Shown piece by piece: positions 36,666 through 45,607 of a stretch of DNA of 64,000 bases. Made by a program: the position numbers and the translations under genes. Position 1 is the first letter of the stretch. The number at the start of each line of letters is the position of its first letter. Origin of the DNA: Acidimicrobiaceae bacterium (GTDB lineage: Bacteria > Actinomycetota > Acidimicrobiia > Acidimicrobiales > Aldehydirespiratoraceae); assembly GCA_009835735.1 (NCBI GenBank), contig VXWX01000010.1, positions 21,824 through 85,823 of the forward strand, written 5' to 3'. Below the pieces are notes generated by a model that worked only from the letters and a program-made list of their open reading frames with translations, ran no database searches and was not told the DNA's origin.

Positions 36666-38057
36666 CTAGGCCGGGTCGCAGGTCTCGTCGGGCTCCACCG
36701 AGGCGAACGACTGCACGATCAGCTGCGAGCCGTCGGCCTGTATCTCAGCCACGTAGATGGGCTGGGCCAGATGACGGCTGCCGGTGATCGATATGTCTCC
36801 GGTCGGTGTGGTCATCGACAGACCCTCCATGGCGGCCGCCACCGCTGCGGTGTCGGTGGTTCCCGCTGCATTGGCTGCGGCCGCATACAGCAGCGCGGCG
36901 TCGTAGATGTGGGAGCTGAACGTCATGTGGGGAGGCGCGTCCGCTCCGAAGCGCTCGAAGTAGCGGCCCACGAACGCGTTGTTTAGGGCGCTGTCGACCT
37001 CCTTGAAGTAGCCGAGGGTGACCCGCATGCCTGCGGTGACCGCCGGTCCCATCGCTCCCAGGACGTTCTCCTCATAGATATTCGCCAGTCTCGGGATGGC
37101 GTCCTGGCCGATGCCGAAGTCCACTGCCTGGGTCTCGAAGGCGATGGCGTCGCCGCCTACAAGCGCTGGGAAGATCAGGTCAGCGCCAGATCCTGCGATG
37201 ATCTGGGCAACCGACGAGAAGTCTTGAGTGCCCAGCGGGACGTACTCCTCGCCGACCACCTCGCCGCCGGCCGCCTCGATGTACTGGCGAGCCCACTCGA
37301 AGCTGCGGCGGGGCCACACGTAGTCGTTGCCGAGCAGGAACCAGGTCTGGCCGCCGGTCTGCTCCATCATCCACGGGATCACGGGCGCAAGTTGCTGGCT
37401 GGGCACCTCGCCGGTGTTGAACATCACCGAAGAGCACTCGCCGCCCTCGTACAGGGCCGCGTAGATGTAGAGGACATTGGCGTCCTCCGCCAGCGGCTTG
37501 GCGGCCTGGCGCGTCGCGCTCGAGTGGGTGCCGAGGACCACGTCGACGTTGTCGGAGTCGATCAGCTGCTCCATGGCCTGCCGGCCGACGGCAGGATCGG
37601 TGGCGTCGTCGGCCAGGTACGTCTCCACGGGCCGGCCGTTGATGCCTCCGGCCGCGTTGATGTCCTCTTCGATGAATTCGGCGATGTTGGAAGTGGGCGG
37701 ACCGAAGAGGCCGGCCGGACCGCTGTTCGAGAACAGGATCCCGATGCGCACGGGCTCTCCCGAAGGCTCGGCCGGCTCCTGCGGCTCAGGCTCGTCGGGC
37801 GCCTCGGTGGTCTCAGGCTCGGGAGCCTCGGTCGTCTCCGGCTCGTCGGGTTCCGGCACCTCGGGAGCCTCGGTCGTCTCGGGCTCGGGTGCTTCCTCTG
37901 AGTCGGTGGATTCGGCGCCCGTGTCGGTCGCGGCCGGAGCATCCGGGGTCCCGTCGTCATCTTCTCCGCAGGCCGCGGCGACTAGAGCAAGGAGCGCGAC
38001 GAGCGCGGCCACGAACCACAAGCGAGACCGCGAGCGGGAGTCCTGTATTGTTCTCAT
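36666..38057 (-). CDS. ABC transporter substrate-binding lipoprotein (LivK/AmiC-like)
   Basis: The product has 463 residues. A basic N-terminus (SRSRSRLW), a hydrophobic core and the lipobox VAAAC mark a lipoprotein anchored outside the membrane. Residues about 35-100 form an acidic linker of repeated PEPETTEAP units. The binding domain starts near VRIGILFSNSGPAGLFG and carries DDATDP, GTHSSAT, GNDYVWPRR and PLGTQDFSS, a Peripla_BP_6 protein of the AmiC/UrtA-like group. It presents substrate to LivH/LivMG. It has its own promoter and a strong ribosome site (TAGGAGGG). Its ligand is probably the same as that of the cytosolic SRPBCC-fusion sensor. Confidence 0.93.
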   Translation of the reverse strand: MRTIQDSRSRSRLWFVAALVALLALVAAACGEDDDGTPDAPAATDTGAESTDSEEAPEPETTEAPEVPEPDEPETTEAPEPETTEAPDEPEPQEPAEPSGEPVRIGILFSNSGPAGLFGPPTSNIAEFIEEDINAAGGINGRPVETYLADDATDPAVGRQAMEQLIDSDNVDVVLGTHSSATRQAAKPLAEDANVLYIYAALYEGGECSSVMFNTGEVPSQQLAPVIPWMMEQTGGQTWFLLGNDYVWPRRSFEWARQYIEAAGGEVVGEEYVPLGTQDFSSVAQIIAGSGADLIFPALVGGDAIAFETQAVDFGIGQDAIPRLANIYEENVLGAMGPAVTAGMRVTLGYFKEVDSALNNAFVGRYFERFGADAPPHMTFSSHIYDAALLYAAAANAAGTTDTAAVAAAMEGLSMTTPTGDISITGSRHLAQPIYVAEIQADGSQLIVQSFASVEPDETCDPA

Positions 38058-38166: not shown

Positions 38167-39606
38167 TCAGGACGCTTGGGTGGCGGCCGGGAGTTCGTCC
38201 AGGACCCGCACGCCAGAACGGGTCGCTTCGCCCAGCAGCAGCGACTCGAGGGAGCCGCCCAGGGTGCAGCGCCGAGGACCGTTGAACCTGGATCTGCGCA
38301 GGCCGCTCAGCAGTGCGGTCGGCTCCACTCCCCCGCCGGCCCGGCACGAGCGGGCCCAGGTGTGGATCGCTTCGTACACGCCCTCCGCGGCTGCCGAGAC
38401 CGGCGGTGAGCAGGACCCGAACCGGTCCGAGTAGCGCCGGAGGAACTCGCGGTTCTCCGAGGTGTCGAGCGCGACGAAGTAGCCCAGCGCGTTCCAGGTG
38501 CCCTCACCGGACTCGCCGAGATGCTCGACCACGGCGTCGTCCATGAGCGGGGCGAACGTTCGGATGCTGTCTCTGAGGCCGGATGCCGCGAAGTCGCGCT
38601 GGAAGCCGACATGGTCCTGGCCGACGAAGCTCGACACCACGTGGTCGACACCGCTCCGCTGGATGGCTGCCAGCAGCGGTTCGAAATTCTGCGATCCCAA
38701 CGGCAGGTAGCCCTCACCGGCGACATGGCCGTCCATGCGTTCGATGACGGCCCTCGCTGTCGCGCCGACCGCTCGGGGCCACGAGTAGTCGTTGCCGGCC
38801 AGGAACCAGCGGGACCCGCCCGTCTGTGCCGCCATGAGCGGCAGGGCCCGGTGGAGCTGATCCATCGGCGTCTCGCCGAAGCGGACGAGCAGTGGATGTT
38901 CTGCGGTCGGCTCACTGGTCGGCGTGTAGAGATACGGGATGCCCTTCGCTACCGCCATGGGAGCGGTGACCGCGTAAGTGGCCGAGGAGTGCATCCCGAT
39001 CACGGCGGCCAGACCCGGTGTGCGGCACAGGCGGCGCATGGCGATCGCGCCTACGCCTGGGTCGGTGGCGTCATCGCCTACGACCAGTCTGACGGCTCGG
39101 CCCATCACACCACCGTCGGCGTTGATCTCCTCGACAGCGAGCTGTGCGCAGTTCGCAGTCGAGCGGCCCAGGATCCCCGCAGGACCTGACAGGGAGATCA
39201 GGAGCCCAAGAGGCACCTCCCACCATCCCGTCTCGTAGCCGCCGAGCAGCCCCAACTCAGCGCCGAGGCGAGCCACTTCGACGTCATCGATCGTCACACG
39301 TACCCGCAGCCGTGTGCCCCCGCTGTCCAACGGGTCGAAGCGGCAAACGACACGGCCCGCCCACGGTGTCTCGTGCATCAGGTCGATACGACGGTTCGGC
39401 TGGCACGAGAGCACCCGGGCCGTCCCCGGCGACCGGGCCAGGCCGCCGAGGGGAAGCGCCAGGCGGACCAGTGAACCGGGCCTCAGCAGGGGTGCCTCAG
39501 ACCCGAACAGCCACCCGACGGCCGCGTCGCCCTGGCCGAAGAGCGCGAACAGTTCGCTGGGGCAGGCCTCCAGCCGGAGTTCGTTGTTGAGGATGAGCTC
39601 ACCCAT
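38167..39606 (-). CDS. Cytosolic SRPBCC-domain/periplasmic-binding-protein fusion, probable ligand sensor
   Basis: This 479-residue two-domain protein has no signal peptide. Residues about 1-115 look like an SRPBCC/START-type fold (LILNNELRLEACPSELFALF, then LVRLALP, RIDLMHETPWAG, FDPLDSGGTRLRVRVTID). From about residue 130 a full Peripla_BP_6 domain follows (LGLLISLSGPAGILGRSTAN, DDATDP, GMHSSAT, GNDYSWPRA, PLGSQNFEPLL). It shares these blocks with the exported binding protein encoded next. AmiC-type cytosolic binding proteins act as ligand sensors, and ArsR genes are often paired with SRPBCC genes. Its start lies 10 bp after the ArsR gene. I infer it senses the transported compound and works with the ArsR repressor; this is not proven. 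Confidence 0.8.
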   Translation of the reverse strand: MGELILNNELRLEACPSELFALFGQGDAAVGWLFGSEAPLLRPGSLVRLALPLGGLARSPGTARVLSCQPNRRIDLMHETPWAGRVVCRFDPLDSGGTRLRVRVTIDDVEVARLGAELGLLGGYETGWWEVPLGLLISLSGPAGILGRSTANCAQLAVEEINADGGVMGRAVRLVVGDDATDPGVGAIAMRRLCRTPGLAAVIGMHSSATYAVTAPMAVAKGIPYLYTPTSEPTAEHPLLVRFGETPMDQLHRALPLMAAQTGGSRWFLAGNDYSWPRAVGATARAVIERMDGHVAGEGYLPLGSQNFEPLLAAIQRSGVDHVVSSFVGQDHVGFQRDFAASGLRDSIRTFAPLMDDAVVEHLGESGEGTWNALGYFVALDTSENREFLRRYSDRFGSCSPPVSAAAEGVYEAIHTWARSCRAGGGVEPTALLSGLRRSRFNGPRRCTLGGSLESLLLGEATRSGVRVLDELPAATQAS

Positions 39607-39616
39607 GAGACCGCGT

Positions 39617-39979
39617 CTAGGCGCTGCGCTCTTCGACTCGGCCAGCAGGGGTGTCCTCCGAGGTGGCCGCGCCCTGCACGGCCGACGCGAGCTGCTCCAA
39701 GGAGTTCTGGTACACGGAGGTGAGGAAGGCCACCACCGCGTCTGCCGGGGTAGGGGTGACCGAGTAGTGCCGGAACCGGCCGTCGCGGCGCTCTGCCACC
39801 AGCCCGGCGAGGCGGAGAATACGCAGGTGCGACGACACGGCGGTACGTCCCAACGAGTCGAAATGCGCGGCGATCTCGCCCGCGGTCAACTCCTCATGCT
39901 CGCCGATCAGGCTGAGGATGGCCCGTCGGGTGGGGTCGGCGAGAGCCGAGAAGATGGCGTCACTGTCGGAGGGGGCCAT
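39617..39979 (-). CDS. ArsR-family transcriptional regulator
   Basis: This 120-residue winged-helix protein has SDAIFSALADPTRRAILSLI, then ELTAGEIAAHF, the recognition helix TAVSSHLRILRLAGLV and the wing ERRDGRFRHYSVT. No metal-binding cysteine pair is seen, so it belongs to the AHSA1/SRPBCC-linked ArsR group and not the metal sensors. ATG 39979 (or GTG 39982) follows a GGAGG site. It is co-oriented with the fusion sensor and the importer, and is the likely regulator of the catabolic run. Before the IS insertion it lay about 57 bp downstream of the acyl-CoA synthetase stop codon. Confidence 0.88.
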   Translation of the reverse strand: MAPSDSDAIFSALADPTRRAILSLIGEHEELTAGEIAAHFDSLGRTAVSSHLRILRLAGLVAERRDGRFRHYSVTPTPADAVVAFLTSVYQNSLEQLASAVQGAATSEDTPAGRVEERSA

Positions 39980-40035
39980 CACGCCTCCTGTGTCTGCTTG
40001 TCAATACTTGCGCACACATACTGTCACACTGTCGA

Positions 40036-40089
40036 TCAGCCCGTCCTGTGATCCGGCGAACGCCTCAGGCTGAGTTCGTGCTTTTTTAC
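40036..40089 (-). pseudogene. Detached 3' end of the acyl-CoA synthetase gene
   Basis: Minus-strand reading from the target duplication gives VKKHELSLRRSPDHRTG and then TGA (40036-40038). This continues the LGKVKK end of the synthetase at 42742-42750 in frame if the IS and one target copy are removed. It therefore preserves the original C-terminus, now cut off by the element. Confidence 0.85.
40081..40089. repeat. Left target-site duplication of the IS
   Basis: CTTTTTTAC occurs here and at 42742-42750, directly outside both terminal repeats. IS1595-type elements usually duplicate 8 bp; the ninth base may be a chance match. Confidence 0.85.
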
Positions 40090-40143
40090 GGGAATTATAT
40101 ACGAAGGTTGCGAAATGGCGTACCCCGGTGGTAGAGTGAAGCC

Positions 40144-41151
40144 ATGAACACCGAGGTAGAGACACATAAAGCACCCGGCCGGAGCCACCGGCAGGGTATC
40201 GATCTGATCGAGTTGATGGACCGCTTCGACAGCGACGACGCGGCCCGTGTCTGGTTCGAGTCGATCATCTGGCCCGACGGCCGCATCTGCGGTCACTGCG
40301 ACTCGACGAACACCATCGAGGCGGTGCATCGGTCGATGCCCTACCGGTGCCGCGACTGCTCGGGCTACTTCTCGGTCAAGACCGGCACCGCTATTGAGTC
40401 GTCCAAGATCGGGCTGCGCAAGTGGGCCATCGCCATCTACCTCGAACTGACCAGCCTCAAAGGCGTCAGCTCCATGAAGCTGCACCGAGACCTAGGAGTG
40501 ACTCAGAAGACGGCGTGGTACATGCTGCACCGCATCCGCGAGAGCTTCGCAGTCCTCGCCGACGTCGTGGCGATGCAAGGCCCGATAGAGGTGGACACCA
40601 CCTACATCGGCGGCCTGGAGAAGAACAAGCACGCCAACAAGAAGCTCCGCGCCGGTCGCGGACCCGTCGGCAAGGCCGCAGTGATCGGTGCAGCCGACCG
40701 AGCCACCGGCAAGGTCACCGCCGCGGTCGTCGACGCCGAGACAGCCGCCACCGCGGACGCGTTCCTAGCGGACCACGCAGCCGAAGGCGCGGCCGTCTAC
40801 ACCGACGAAGCCAGCGCCTACCAGCATCTGCCGAACCACGAAGCGGTCAGCCACTCAGCGGGCGAGTACGTCAAGTACCTCGACGGGGTGAACATCGACA
40901 CCAACGCCGTCGAGTCGCTGTGGTCCACGATCAAGCGAGCCCACAAAGGCGTCTACCACCACCTGTCAGCCAAGCACCTGCAGCGCTACATCGACAGCTT
41001 CGCAGCGAAGCGCAACATCCGCGACGCCGACACGGCGGACCAGATGGCCGCTGTAGTGGCGTCGATGTTCGGCCGACACATCACCTACCGGGAACTGGTC
41101 GGGGCGCCTCAGCCGCTCGGCCAGACGCAACTAGCGCTCGAACCCTGGTAG
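40144..41151 (+). CDS. IS1595/ISXO2-type transposase
   Basis: The product has 335 residues. The N-terminal zinc ribbon ICGHCDSTN...YRCRDCSGYFSVKTGT (about residues 49-80) and the DDE-type core (IEVDTTYIGG near 156, VYTDEASAYQHL near 219, VNIDTNAVESLWSTIKR near 250, where N/E takes the last acidic position) match the ISXO2-like transposase family. The helix-turn-helix segment LGVTQKTAWYMLHRIRE lies between them. It is complete and apparently functional, 54 bp inside the left terminal repeat. Confidence 0.95.
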   Translation: MNTEVETHKAPGRSHRQGIDLIELMDRFDSDDAARVWFESIIWPDGRICGHCDSTNTIEAVHRSMPYRCRDCSGYFSVKTGTAIESSKIGLRKWAIAIYLELTSLKGVSSMKLHRDLGVTQKTAWYMLHRIRESFAVLADVVAMQGPIEVDTTYIGGLEKNKHANKKLRAGRGPVGKAAVIGAADRATGKVTAAVVDAETAATADAFLADHAAEGAAVYTDEASAYQHLPNHEAVSHSAGEYVKYLDGVNIDTNAVESLWSTIKRAHKGVYHHLSAKHLQRYIDSFAAKRNIRDADTADQMAAVVASMFGRHITYRELVGAPQPLGQTQLALEPW

Positions 41152-41173
41152 ACCTCAGCCGCCGAGGGGTCGC

Positions 41174-41425
41174 TCAAATGCCCAAATGGTCCTCGATCTT
41201 GTCGAGACGCCGGTTGTTTAGTATCTGCCGCTGAACAATCGACGACTGCGCGAACTCGATGCTGTCCAAGCGCGTCTCAACACCCGATACGCGCTCTGAG
41301 ACCTGCCCAAGCTCTTGCTCGATGCGGTCTAGTTGCTCACGGATCTGGCGCTGCCCGTCCGCAACGCTGGCAAGCAACTGATAAACCTGATCGATTGTGT
41401 GTTCTTCCACAGCCTTTTGCACCAC
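41174..41425 (-). CDS. Small coiled-coil passenger protein
   Basis: The product has 83 residues. Heptad-like repeats run through most of the chain: IDQVYQLLASVADGQRQIRE, then LDRIEQELGQVSERVSGVET and RLDSIEFAQ. It ends NNRRLDKIEDHLGI. No other domain is seen. It is antisense to the neighbours and convergent with the transposase within the IS. The function is unknown. Confidence 0.5.
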   Translation of the reverse strand: MVQKAVEEHTIDQVYQLLASVADGQRQIREQLDRIEQELGQVSERVSGVETRLDSIEFAQSSIVQRQILNNRRLDKIEDHLGI

Positions 41426-41596
41426 CCTACTTTGCTGGCTGGTTCGACTGTAGCGCTCGCCGCGCGGGGCGCGGCCACACCGGGCTTGTCGGCGCGCCTC
41501 CGTGGTGTCTTATGGTGCTGGTTGCCGTGCAGCATCGCAGGCTCAGCCGGAGCCCGCTTCAAGACCTAGCCGCCCGAGAACGGGGCTTGTCGTCAT

Positions 41597-41664
41597 GGTT
41601 CCCTTCGGGGCTAGGTCACAAGGTGTTGCACGGCAAACGACACCCCGACTCTCCGAAGGGAACC
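41597..41664 (+). promoter_or_regulatory. Inverted repeat covering the SLH gene ribosome site
   Basis: GGTTCCCTTCGG (41597-41608) is the exact complement of CCGAAGGGAACC (41653-41664), which contains the GAAGGG ribosome site of the gene starting at 41668. A flanking pair CCTAGCC/GGCTAGG (near 41565 and 41608) could form an alternative stem. The arms could pair in mRNA and hide the ribosome site. Confidence 0.5.
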
Positions 41665-41667
41665 ACC

Positions 41668-42483
41668 ATGCGCCGACTCATCTCAGTCGCCCTAATCGTT
41701 GTCGCCGTGCTCGTTGTAGGCGGCACCGTGGCCGCCCAGAGCGTGCAGCGCTTCTCGGACGTGCCCGCGAACCATCCAGCAGCCGAAGCCATCGAGTGGG
41801 CTGCGGTGTCGGGGGTGACCGTCGGTTACGGCGATGGCACGTTCCGGCCCGAGGTGCCGCTGTCGAAACAGCATGCGGTGATCTTCATGGAACGCTTCTA
41901 CGACGACATCCTCGGAGCCGAATCCTCACCCGATTTCACTCGCGGCGACATGATGATGGTGCTGCACAACATGTCCGGCCCGACCAACATCGAGCCCGAC
42001 GACGCTCTCGGCGACGCGTTCGATCTGGTGACGTTGCCGCCGACCACCTCCATCTACGGCGTCAATCTGCAATATGACGGCGGGGTGCGGCTCATTCTGT
42101 CCGCCACCCAGTTGCTTGGCCCTGAGAACCGCAGGCCGTCGGGTGGGTGGCTGCGGCTCATCTGCTCAACCACGACGGGGTGGGCATGGTTGGCGACGTT
42201 CGACATCGGAGGTGCGGACGCTGTTCTGCCGCAACTCTATGAGGGCCTCAACATCCGTGTGGACGGCGGTGCGTGGCGGGGGTTGCGCACCACCCAGAGC
42301 CAAGCACCAGGCCGGCCCCCGGCCCATGACAGTTGGGAGGTCACCGACGCCGATGCGCTGATGTCGGTGATCGTCGCCGGAGCGACGCTCGAGGTGCAGG
42401 TGCTCAACAACAAGGGTGCCGTCTTTGATGTCTCGGAGTTGCGGCTGTTCCGCGACTTCGTGCCCGACCGGTGCCGATGGTGA
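41668..42483 (+). CDS. Exported SLH-motif passenger protein
   Basis: The product has 271 residues. A signal peptide (RRLISVALIVVAVLVVGGTV then AAQS) precedes an S-layer-homology-like motif: RFSDVPANHPAAEAIEWAA, SGVTVGYGDGTFRPEVPLSK, then AVIFMERFYDDIL. The rest (about residues 90-271) is a beta-rich region with LRLICSTTTGWAWLATFDIG and no known domain. ATG 41668 fits the signal peptide. SLH domains bind cell-wall polymers. It is unusual cargo for an insertion sequence. Confidence 0.8.
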   Translation: MRRLISVALIVVAVLVVGGTVAAQSVQRFSDVPANHPAAEAIEWAAVSGVTVGYGDGTFRPEVPLSKQHAVIFMERFYDDILGAESSPDFTRGDMMMVLHNMSGPTNIEPDDALGDAFDLVTLPPTTSIYGVNLQYDGGVRLILSATQLLGPENRRPSGGWLRLICSTTTGWAWLATFDIGGADAVLPQLYEGLNIRVDGGAWRGLRTTQSQAPGRPPAHDSWEVTDADALMSVIVAGATLEVQVLNNKGAVFDVSELRLFRDFVPDRCRW

Positions 42484-42511
42484 CTTCCCACAGGTACGGG
42501 CTGCTATGCTT

Positions 42512-42527
42512 CCGTACAGATGTACGG
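42512..42527. promoter_or_regulatory. Perfect 7+2+7 palindrome before the 44-residue ORF
   Basis: CCGTACA-GA-TGTACGG lies 20 bp before the ATG at 42547, beside a TATGCT that could serve as -10. It could be an operator, possibly for the small protein itself. Confidence 0.5.
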
Positions 42528-42546
42528 CGCGAGAAGGGAGACTTCG

Positions 42547-42681
42547 ATGAGCACCAAGAAGCGTGAGCACAAGCGACGGTCAATGCCGTCGCCGGTACTC
42601 CAACAGGATGCCGAAGCGACACCAGAACAGGTAGCTGCGGCGTTGCTTCGTCGCACCGCGAAGCCTCAGGCGTCGGGCTAG
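42547..42681 (+). CDS. 44-residue basic passenger protein
   Basis: ATG 42547 follows a strong AAGGGAG site 6 bases upstream. The product reads MSTKKREHKRRSMPSPVLQQ, then DAEATPEQVAAALLRRTAKP and QASG. A basic N-terminus precedes a short helix (PEQVAAALLRRTA). It ends 37 bp inside the right terminal repeat. It may be a small DNA-binding or regulatory protein of the IS; the function is unknown. Confidence 0.6.
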   Translation: MSTKKREHKRRSMPSPVLQQDAEATPEQVAAALLRRTAKPQASG

Positions 42682-42699
42682 AGCGGTCACACGACCAGG

Positions 42700-44184
42700 C
42701 TACCGGCCACCGACCCGCTCGCAACCTTCGTATATAATCCCCTTTTTTACCTTGCCCAGCGACGTGCGCGGCAGGTCGTCGACGAAGATCCACTCTCGTG
42801 GCCGCTTGTAGACCGCAAGCCGCTGCCCGCACCATTGCTCGAGGGTCGCCGCATCGGGCAGCGCCCCGGCTTCAGGGACTATGTAGGCCGCCGGCACCTC
42901 GCCCCAGCGCTGGTCGGGCCGTCCGATGACGGCTGCCTGGGCCACCGCGGGATGTTCGCCCAGTACCCGCTCCACCTCCGCGGGATAGACGTTCTCCCCG
43001 CCGGAGATGATGAGCTCGCGGACGCGGCCGGTGATGTAGACGAATCCGTCTTCGTCGAGGCGGCCGACATCCCCGGTCCGGTACCACCCGCCCGCGAAGG
43101 CTCGGGCTGTTTCGTCGGGACGGTTCCAGTAGTGGGTGAACAGGTTGGGCCCCCGCAGCCACAGCTCCCCCGTCCGGCCCGGCGCGACGTCGGCTCCAGC
43201 GGCGTCGACGAGCCGTAGCTGGCAGTGCTGTGCGGGTCGACCGCATGAGCCGATCCGATCCGCGTCGCCGTAGCCGAGGACGACCGCGGTCGGGCCGGTC
43301 TCGGTCGACCCATAGACCTGCACGACCCGCACGCCGTAGGCGTTGAAGCGCCGGATGAGTTCTTCGGGAACGATCGAGGACCCGCAGTTGAGAGCACCGA
43401 GGGAGCTGAGGTCTTCGGGGGTCAGCGCGCCGCAGCCCAGTAGGGCCTCCATGGCCGTCGGCACGAGCAACAGGTGCGTCGGTCGATGGCGGCGCAGGAT
43501 CGCCACGAGGCCGTCGGGATCGAACCTCTCGGCCAGCACGACCGCGCCGCCGGCAAAGAGGCAGGGGACGGTCTGGATGTTGAGCCCGCCGACATGGAAC
43601 AGCGGCAGGACCGAGGCGACGACCGAGCCGGTGCCGAACCCCTCGTGAGCCACCCCGTTCAACACGGTGTAGTGGAGCGACCGCTGCGTCAGCACCGCAC
43701 CCTTGGGCGTGCCGGTCGTGCCCGATGTGTAGACCAGCAGCAAGGGGTGCTCCGGTGCGCCCTTCTCCTGAGCGCCCGGTACGGCGTCGAGAGCCTGAGC
43801 GGCGAAGGCATCAAGATCTTCTGGTTCGGTGCCGGCACGGCGGAGCAGGTCCTCAAGGGCCGGCTCGGCCAAGACTACGGACGGCTCGCAGTCCCCAAGC
43901 TGGAAGCGAACCTCGGGAGCGGTCAGCCGGTTGTTGACAGGAACCAGGATCGCTCCCACGTGGGCGCAGGCGAAGAGCAGTTCCAGCATTTCAACGCGAT
44001 TGAGGGCGCACACCGCCACGCGGTCGCCCACATCCACGTCGCGGCTGCGAAGTTGCGCCGCCATGCCTCGAACTCGGGCAGCCAACCCGGCATAAGTGAC
44101 CTGCCCGCGATCGCTGACGACGGCCGTGCGCTGCGGCGTCCACTGGGCCCAGTGATCGATCCAGCCGAAGATGCTCGCTCTCAT
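42700..44184 (-). CDS. AMP-forming acyl-CoA synthetase/aromatic acid-CoA ligase, C-terminus replaced by IS sequence
   Basis: This 494-residue ANL-superfamily enzyme has P-loop YTSGTTGTPKGAV (near 152), YGSTETGP, GGWYRTGDVG and the catalytic lysine in LPRTSLGKVKK. It activates a carboxylic acid to its CoA thioester. The last 13 residues (GIIYEGCERVGGR) are encoded by the IS terminal repeat; the original ending, HELSLRRSPDHRTG, survives at 40036-40080. The catalytic lysine is retained, so activity may persist. It follows the molybdenum hydroxylase genes in the same direction (23-bp gap). Confidence 0.9.
   Translation of the reverse strand: MRASIFGWIDHWAQWTPQRTAVVSDRGQVTYAGLAARVRGMAAQLRSRDVDVGDRVAVCALNRVEMLELLFACAHVGAILVPVNNRLTAPEVRFQLGDCEPSVVLAEPALEDLLRRAGTEPEDLDAFAAQALDAVPGAQEKGAPEHPLLLVYTSGTTGTPKGAVLTQRSLHYTVLNGVAHEGFGTGSVVASVLPLFHVGGLNIQTVPCLFAGGAVVLAERFDPDGLVAILRRHRPTHLLLVPTAMEALLGCGALTPEDLSSLGALNCGSSIVPEELIRRFNAYGVRVVQVYGSTETGPTAVVLGYGDADRIGSCGRPAQHCQLRLVDAAGADVAPGRTGELWLRGPNLFTHYWNRPDETARAFAGGWYRTGDVGRLDEDGFVYITGRVRELIISGGENVYPAEVERVLGEHPAVAQAAVIGRPDQRWGEVPAAYIVPEAGALPDAATLEQWCGQRLAVYKRPREWIFVDDLPRTSLGKVKKGIIYEGCERVGGR
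42742..42750. repeat. Right target-site duplication of the IS
   Basis: CTTTTTTAC here is identical to 40081-40089. It encodes the VKK of the synthetase LGKVKK end. Confidence 0.85.
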
Positions 44185-44207: not shown

Positions 44208-44675
44208 CTATTCCATCCGGGCGAGCGCCACCGACAGGACGGCGTCGATGATCTTGCTGTACCCGGTGCAGCGGCAGAGATTGCCGGCCAAGCCTTCACG
44301 TATGGCGGCACCGTCCGGTTCCACGCCGTCGCGCAGCAGCTGTTCGGCGGCCACAACCATGCCCGGAGTGCAGAACCCGCACTGGGCGGCGCCGTGGGTG
44401 ACGAAGGCCTCCTGCAGGTCGTTCATCATCCGCCCGCGTCCCGCGATCCCCTCGATGGTGGTGATTTCGGCACCGTCGATCTGTCCGACGGTCTGCAGGC
44501 ACGACACCACCGATCTACCGTCGACGATCACGGTGCATGCGCCGCAGTCGCCGGTGAGGCATCCCCACTTCGTGCCGATCAGGTGGAGTTGCCCGCGCAG
44601 CACCGACAGCAAGGTGTCGGACGGATCAACCGGCCGGACCACGGGATCGCCGTTGACGGTGATGCTGATCCTCAT
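44208..44675 (-). CDS. Molybdenum hydroxylase [2Fe-2S] subunit (CoxS/HcrC type)
   Basis: This 155-residue protein binds two [2Fe-2S] clusters: plant-type ferredoxin site WGCLTGDCGACTVIVDG (near 37-53) and the alpha-helical site QCGFCTPGM...NLCRCTGY (near 97-135). It passes electrons between the molybdenum and FAD subunits. ATG 44675 overlaps the end of the FAD subunit gene by four bases. All eight cysteines are seen. Confidence 0.93.
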   Translation of the reverse strand: MRISITVNGDPVVRPVDPSDTLLSVLRGQLHLIGTKWGCLTGDCGACTVIVDGRSVVSCLQTVGQIDGAEITTIEGIAGRGRMMNDLQEAFVTHGAAQCGFCTPGMVVAAEQLLRDGVEPDGAAIREGLAGNLCRCTGYSKIIDAVLSVALARME

Positions 44676-45607
44676 GCCCTCGCCCCCGAGGAAGCCGCGG
44701 CCGGCGCCCGACCGTTCACCGGAGCCAGCCCACCCGGCCACAGCCCTGCGGCCCTGGCGTGGGCGATCGACAGGGCCCTCGCTGCCAGCACCCCGGCGAC
44801 GTGGCGGCGATGCTCGGCCGTTCCGCGGGTGTCGCTGATCGGTTCGCATGCGGCCGACGCGGCCGCGCTCACTGCGCCGAGTCGCTCGGTTGTGGGTGGC
44901 GCGCCGGCCAGCAGCGATTCGAGTCCGGGTACCAGCACCGCGGTGGGTGCGACTGCGCCGAGCGCCACCCGCGCCTCCTGGACTGCTGCCTCGCGGCCCG
45001 TTCTGTCAGTCAGGACCCAGGCAGCGACGCCAACTCCGGCGAGATCCATCGCCCAGCGGACCGTCTGGCGCAGATAGCACGAGCCGCTGAGGGCAGGAGC
45101 CCGCAGGCGCACGTTCGTCAGGATCTCGCCGGTCCCCAGGATCGTGGTCCGGGGTCCGGTGGCGAAGTCAGCGACAGCCTGCCGACGCTCGCCGTTAGGG
45201 CCCTGGATCGCCGCGACGGCGTCGTGAACCATCAGCGGCGGCGCCAGTTCAGCGGCTGGAGAGGCGGTGCAGAGATTCCCGCCCAGCGTGGCCATGTTGC
45301 GGATCTGCACCGAGCCGAGGACCCTGGCCGCCTCGGCCAGAGCCGAGGCTCGGACGATGACCGCCGGATCGGATTCGATCTCCCTGACAGTGGCCGTCGC
45401 GCCGAGGTGCAGCTCGTCGCCATCCCAGCGAACGCCCCGGAGTTCGTCGATTCCGGTCACGTCCACCAGCGGCGCCTGGGGATCGGCGCGACCGAGCCGG
45501 CGGTCGATCACCAGATCGGTGCCGCCCGCGATGACCACCGCCTCCGGATTGCCGGCCAGGAATGCCACGGCCTCTCGCACCGACCCCGGCCGGTAGTAGC
45601 CGTTCAC
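44672..45607 (-). CDS. Molybdenum hydroxylase FAD-binding subunit (CoxM type)
   Basis: The product has 311 residues. AVVIAGGTDLVIDRRLG and NMATLGGNLCTASPAAELAPPLM are the two FAD-binding motifs (AGGTD and TxGGN) of this family. The C-terminal domain includes RGTAEHRRHVAGVLAARAL. GTG 45607 overlaps the large-subunit stop (GTGA), which supports translational coupling. Confidence 0.92.
   Translation of the reverse strand: MNGYYRPGSVREAVAFLAGNPEAVVIAGGTDLVIDRRLGRADPQAPLVDVTGIDELRGVRWDGDELHLGATATVREIESDPAVIVRASALAEAARVLGSVQIRNMATLGGNLCTASPAAELAPPLMVHDAVAAIQGPNGERRQAVADFATGPRTTILGTGEILTNVRLRAPALSGSCYLRQTVRWAMDLAGVGVAAWVLTDRTGREAAVQEARVALGAVAPTAVLVPGLESLLAGAPPTTERLGAVSAAASAACEPISDTRGTAEHRRHVAGVLAARALSIAHARAAGLWPGGLAPVNGRAPAAASSGARA

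Follow-up and report, generated by a model that had tools for sequence, protein, structure and literature searches.

The IS1595 family of insertion sequences, whose source description by Siguier, Gagnevin and Chandler (2009) is taken here from the accounts of it in PMC3129680, PMC8101967 and PMC12561309, produces 8-bp target duplications and encodes transposases with an N-terminal zinc finger (PMC8101967; PMC12561309). Its subgroups are ISPna2, ISH4, IS1016, IS1595, ISSod11, ISNwi1 and ISNha5, and the zinc ribbon is missing solely in the IS1016 group (PMC8101967). Elements of this kind with passenger genes are known in general, and PMC3129680 attributes these "transporter ISs" to Siguier, Gagnevin and Chandler (2009). 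The window analyzed here, i.e. the whole stretch of 64,000 nucleotides, contains such a passenger-bearing element inserted near the 3' end of an acyl-CoA synthetase gene. Like the family as characterized in these sources, this element has a DDE transposase carrying an N-terminal zinc ribbon, duplicates 8 bp of an AT-rich target and bears inverted repeats that begin with GGG; unlike the family, it has as a passenger a secreted protein with an S-layer homology (SLH) domain.

The element spans 2,653 bp (40090–42742, plus strand) and is bounded by 24-bp inverted repeats complementary at 23 of 24 positions, i.e. with one mismatch, the left one being GGGAATTATATACGAAGGTTGCGA (40090–40113, plus strand) and the right one (42719–42742, minus strand) reading GGGGATTATATACGAAGGTTGCGA on the minus strand. 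The octamer TTTTTTAC is duplicated at 40082–40089 on the ArsR side and at 42743–42750 on the synthetase side. The intact transposase gene (40144–41151, plus strand) encodes 335 residues that match NF033547 (165.7 bits, cut-off 75) and PF12762 (113.7 bits, cut-off 27, 1e-32), and the N-terminal zinc ribbon is recognized by PF12760 (29.3 bits, cut-off 25.4, 8e-7). Furthermore, the ends GGGRATTATATAC are common to most related elements with located ends: in the 21 whose ends were found the duplications are 8 bp long and the termini mostly resemble GGGRATTATATAC. The element is a member of the IS1595 family, and the event itself is ordinary.

The insertion is well proven by empty sites. The uninterrupted site is present in two congeneric genomes (L040, G009:C6, and L041, G014:C75), and both flanks of the window are collinear with them at 91–93% DNA identity and meet at the target octamer, the synthetase proteins being 92–93% identical. 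When the window's flanks are joined with one target copy, the reading frame continues as PRTSLGKVKK-HELSLRRSPDHRTG followed by a stop codon, as the preliminary description had stated, and the synthetases of the two relatives, which carry this joined form, end in LGKVKK-HELSVRRSPDREAG and LGKVKK-HELGL. Because the joined flanks match these uninterrupted ends, the present end of the window protein, LGKVKK-GIIYEGCERVGGR before the stop, is the derived one. Orthologues that naturally end like the present protein, which the preliminary description had named as the evidence against its replacement by IS sequence, were sought and none was present among 30 homologues. The same description derived the new tail from the terminal repeat, which is right for GIIYEGCE, the 24-bp repeat read in frame, and not for RVGGR, which comes from the five adjoining subterminal codons that precede a TAG. 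The stranded original 3' end (40036–40081, minus strand) still encodes HELSLRRSPDHRTG and its stop, the His codon CAC starting at the edge of the duplication; this stop had been placed about 57 bp before the ArsR gene, close to the distances measured here, 53 nt to a GTG or 56 nt to an ATG start.

We consider it very probable that the following explanation holds as a whole. An IS1595-family element with its passengers moved by DDE transposition, with duplication of 8 bp, into an AT-rich octamer lying in the Val-Lys-Lys codons near the synthetase stop, as the empty sites show. The host frame thereby came to cross the terminal repeat and to end at a TAG some 40 bp into the element, with 14 host residues exchanged for 13 element-encoded ones, both of which can be read directly at the junctions. 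The enzyme would most likely stay active, the exchange lying past the catalytic lysine region and leaving a hydrophobic residue at position +6 after that lysine, and the regulator would most likely keep its own promoter and operator, as sequence conservation suggests. The insertion would be near neutral because both enzyme and regulator are probably little affected. As in insertions known to truncate or re-end genes, the host frame enters the terminal repeat and stops inside the element; there is no categorical difference from other gene-re-ending insertions, and only a poorly conserved tail is swapped here. A literature search on such tail exchange found nothing specific. The locus is a clean case, proven by the uninterrupted site in sister species, of a transposon giving a metabolic enzyme a new end with little damage to be expected.

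The synthetase (42700–44184, minus strand; 494 aa) has the AMP-binding (PF00501, 1.2e-86) and AMP-binding_C (PF13193) domains and the PRTxxGK catalytic-lysine motif of the ANL-superfamily acyl-CoA synthetases, and differs from them in that its last 13 residues, GIIYEGCERVGGR, are of IS origin (42700–42742). PF13193 is matched over all its 76 positions, and the match ends at residue 478, before the new tail begins. The PRTSLGK motif is intact, as are its A10 catalytic lysine and the VKK that follows; the exchange starts four residues past this lysine. Across 30 homologues the lysine is followed mostly by Val or Ile at +1, Leu at +2 and Lys or Arg at +3, then by two variable positions, Leu, Arg and finally anything. 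The tails are 7–28 residues long after the catalytic lysine (L012 keeps only 8) and are not conserved beyond +6/+7. The only widely conserved downstream residue altered in the window protein is that at +6, Leu in 28 of the 30 and Ile here; the Arg at +7, found in 25, had already disappeared from the window's clade, where the two orthologues have Ser and Gly. Among relatives of known structure, 8WEU and 8WEV (annotated as fatty-acyl-CoA synthase and feruloyl-CoA synthetase) are the closest; their sequence here is GKILKGEV, so natural enzymes can have Gly at +4 and a beta-branched residue at +6.

Stability can depend on the residues that follow the catalytic lysine, and the main alternative is that the insertion inactivates or destabilizes the synthetase, which would be a pseudogene in the making. 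All 14 host tail residues are indeed gone, including the Leu at +6 common to nearly all homologues, and 24 residues are unique to the window lineage, against 4 and 10 in the two relatives, though this lineage is also the most distant of the three. Against this stand the full-length domains, the absence of other lesions and the mere change of Leu to Ile, together with dN/dS values of 0.165 and 0.22 relative to the two relatives, unchanged with respect to the 0.172 between them. These values give no sign of relaxed selection, with the proviso that dN/dS could not reveal relaxation after a recent insertion. Altogether we regard inactivation as unlikely, and the enzyme with its new tail is probably still active because the catalytic lysine region is intact and a hydrophobic residue is kept at +6. 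With such variable tails and a dN/dS that is not raised, there is no support for a large effect of the C-terminal swap.

The second question raised by this insertion concerns the gene order. In the two relatives, genes for the large, FAD and 2Fe-2S subunits of a molybdenum hydroxylase, the synthetase, ArsR and substrate-binding proteins lie in this order on one strand. In the window, the 2Fe-2S subunit gene (44208–44849, minus strand; PF01799, PF00111) is directly upstream of the synthetase gene, the ArsR/SmtB-type regulator is found beyond the element (39617–39982, minus strand; NF033788, 77.3 bits, cut-off 55), and the gene for an ABC-type substrate-binding protein (38167–39606, minus strand; PF13458, 5e-74) starts 10 nt after arsR. 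This last protein is extended at its N-terminus by about 130 residues that fall outside the binding-protein model, and a second substrate-binding protein gene follows at 36666–38057. Among nine relatives with arsR orthologues, the synthetase gene adjoins arsR in two and does not in six, and in one the contig ends at the gene. In the six genomes of the genus that have no adjoining synthetase, arsR retains 88–96% identity and stays together with the substrate-binding protein gene. The ancestral run that the insertion was said to have split is thus real as a contiguous same-strand block in two relatives, and is a local arrangement in view of the six others.

The 5' block of arsR (39983–40025, minus strand; GTGTGRCA...CATGTGTGCGCAAGTRTTGACA...), a candidate promoter/operator, is intact in the window and kept in 8 relatives. 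It is conserved with or without a synthetase gene upstream, and it is untouched by the element, whose left end lies 64 bp away. The block holds an imperfect dyad, TGNCANNA-N12-TRTTGACA, in the window and these 8 relatives, which is a candidate ArsR autoregulatory operator. A consensus scan of 39900–42900 in either direction found no sigma-70-like promoter. Since the block is kept even without the synthetase, it is simplest to suppose that arsR is served by a promoter and operator of its own, and since the insertion left it untouched, a loss of regulator transcription appears unlikely. The proposal that the insertion cuts transcription from the molybdenum hydroxylase operon toward the regulator is therefore improbable on comparative grounds.

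A real regulatory effect, in which the insertion would separate arsR and the transporter genes after it from the molybdenum hydroxylase/synthetase operon, is accordingly somewhat less probable still than inactivation of the enzyme. The shared strand and the short gap between synthetase and arsR in two relatives would agree with it, as would three weak terminator-like sites in the element that face that way (four in all, against 1.4 expected), but the 5' block persists where no synthetase precedes it, and the unit that travels together is arsR with the substrate-binding protein gene. Conversely, the end of the element might supply a promoter driving arsR, as a TATAAT is read outward near the left end (TATAATTCCC on the minus strand). 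This is very improbable: no matching -35 hexamer accompanies it, the consensus scan was negative, and the motif belongs to the AT-rich terminal repeat of the family, present in most relatives. Retention by arsR of its own upstream region remains the preferred reading.

The copy number of the element bears on the soundness of the assembly. Its ends are single-copy there, and a search of the same genome with the end sequences found no other copy; only distant transposase relatives are present, two of which span most of the length, at 44–50% identity. A DNA search with the whole element in 51 genomes of the family found no second full copy, returning parts of the transposase, at 74% identity or less over long stretches, and pieces of the SLH region, and plasmid records gave only transposases below 60% identity. 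The nearest transposase match outside the genome is that of L061, from an Acidimicrobiaceae MAG; the host probably belongs to the Acidimicrobiia. An assembly chimera, by which an error in this metagenome-derived, fragmented draft (3.29 Mb, 167 contigs, 84% complete) would have put the element here, can practically be dismissed, as each junction has its copy of the 8-bp duplication next to an intact inverted repeat, two relatives have the flanks joined exactly, and single-copy ends provide no repeat for mis-joining.

As for the choice of target, the octamer reads CTTTTTTAC in the window and CTTCTTCAC in the relatives. The two C-to-T differences (on the coding strand, GTG to GTA and AAG to AAA) are silent and, because both duplicate copies carry them, would most simply be older than the insertion. 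They gave an octamer with a single G/C; no second octamer with at most one G/C occurs elsewhere in the synthetase gene, and five occur in about 10 kb of flanking sequence. The target duplications of 23 family elements (the 21 related ones, that of the window and that of a second element, L161, described below) have a mean GC content of 30%, against 68.5% for the window. With the duplications of the family being AT-rich and such octamers rare in the gene, target choice by base composition is a sufficient explanation, and selection for the site is needless. The locus illustrates how, in a genome of 68% GC, an element that prefers AT-rich targets hits a rare AT-rich codon run.

The wider value of this locus lies in the cargo, a surface-protein gene on an IS1595-type element, which is more interesting than the insertion itself and merits separate study. 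Between the transposase gene and the right end are found an ORF for an 83-aa coiled-coil-like protein (41174–41425, minus strand; weak SpiroCoCo match below cut-off), one for a 271-aa secreted-type protein with an SLH domain (41668–42483, plus strand; PF00395, 2e-9) and one of 44 aa (42547–42681, plus strand). A literature search found no report of SLH cargo in IS1595-type elements. A second IS1595-type element, with the 8-bp duplication GAGTGGCT, lies in the sister genome G014 (L161:2233–5322); its transposase is 40% identical to that of the window element and its terminal repeats are different. The SLH protein that it encodes (L161:4061–4759) is 69% identical to that of the window over the N-terminal 103 residues, the C-terminal parts being different. 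The coiled-coil ORFs of both elements have weak similarity (28% over 61 residues, E 6e-5 in a single comparison) and end in LDKVVDHLGI in L161 and LDKIEDHLGI in the window. Since two distant elements each carry an SLH gene and a coiled-coil ORF of similar ending, the IS1595-family elements of this genus might be repeated vehicles of SLH proteins, the cargo having been acquired or swapped on more than one occasion, a possibility that we put forward tentatively. The idea that the SLH family as a whole is IS-borne was rejected, as a search for terminal repeats near SLH genes at 15 loci of the genus found them at L161 alone.

Other related elements carry an N6/N4 DNA methylase instead (L061:4997–6181, L064:5023–6039, L068:1099–2280 and L085:5363–6340); in all of these but L064 the methylase is fused to an HNH endonuclease domain. 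These come from genomes of two phyla, the MAGs being labelled Acidimicrobiaceae, Acidimicrobiia, Chloroflexi and Dehalococcoidia. The 44-aa ORF of the window element has a homologue in one of them (L064:6202–6315; about 62% identity over 35 aa) and is possibly part of the element's own machinery.
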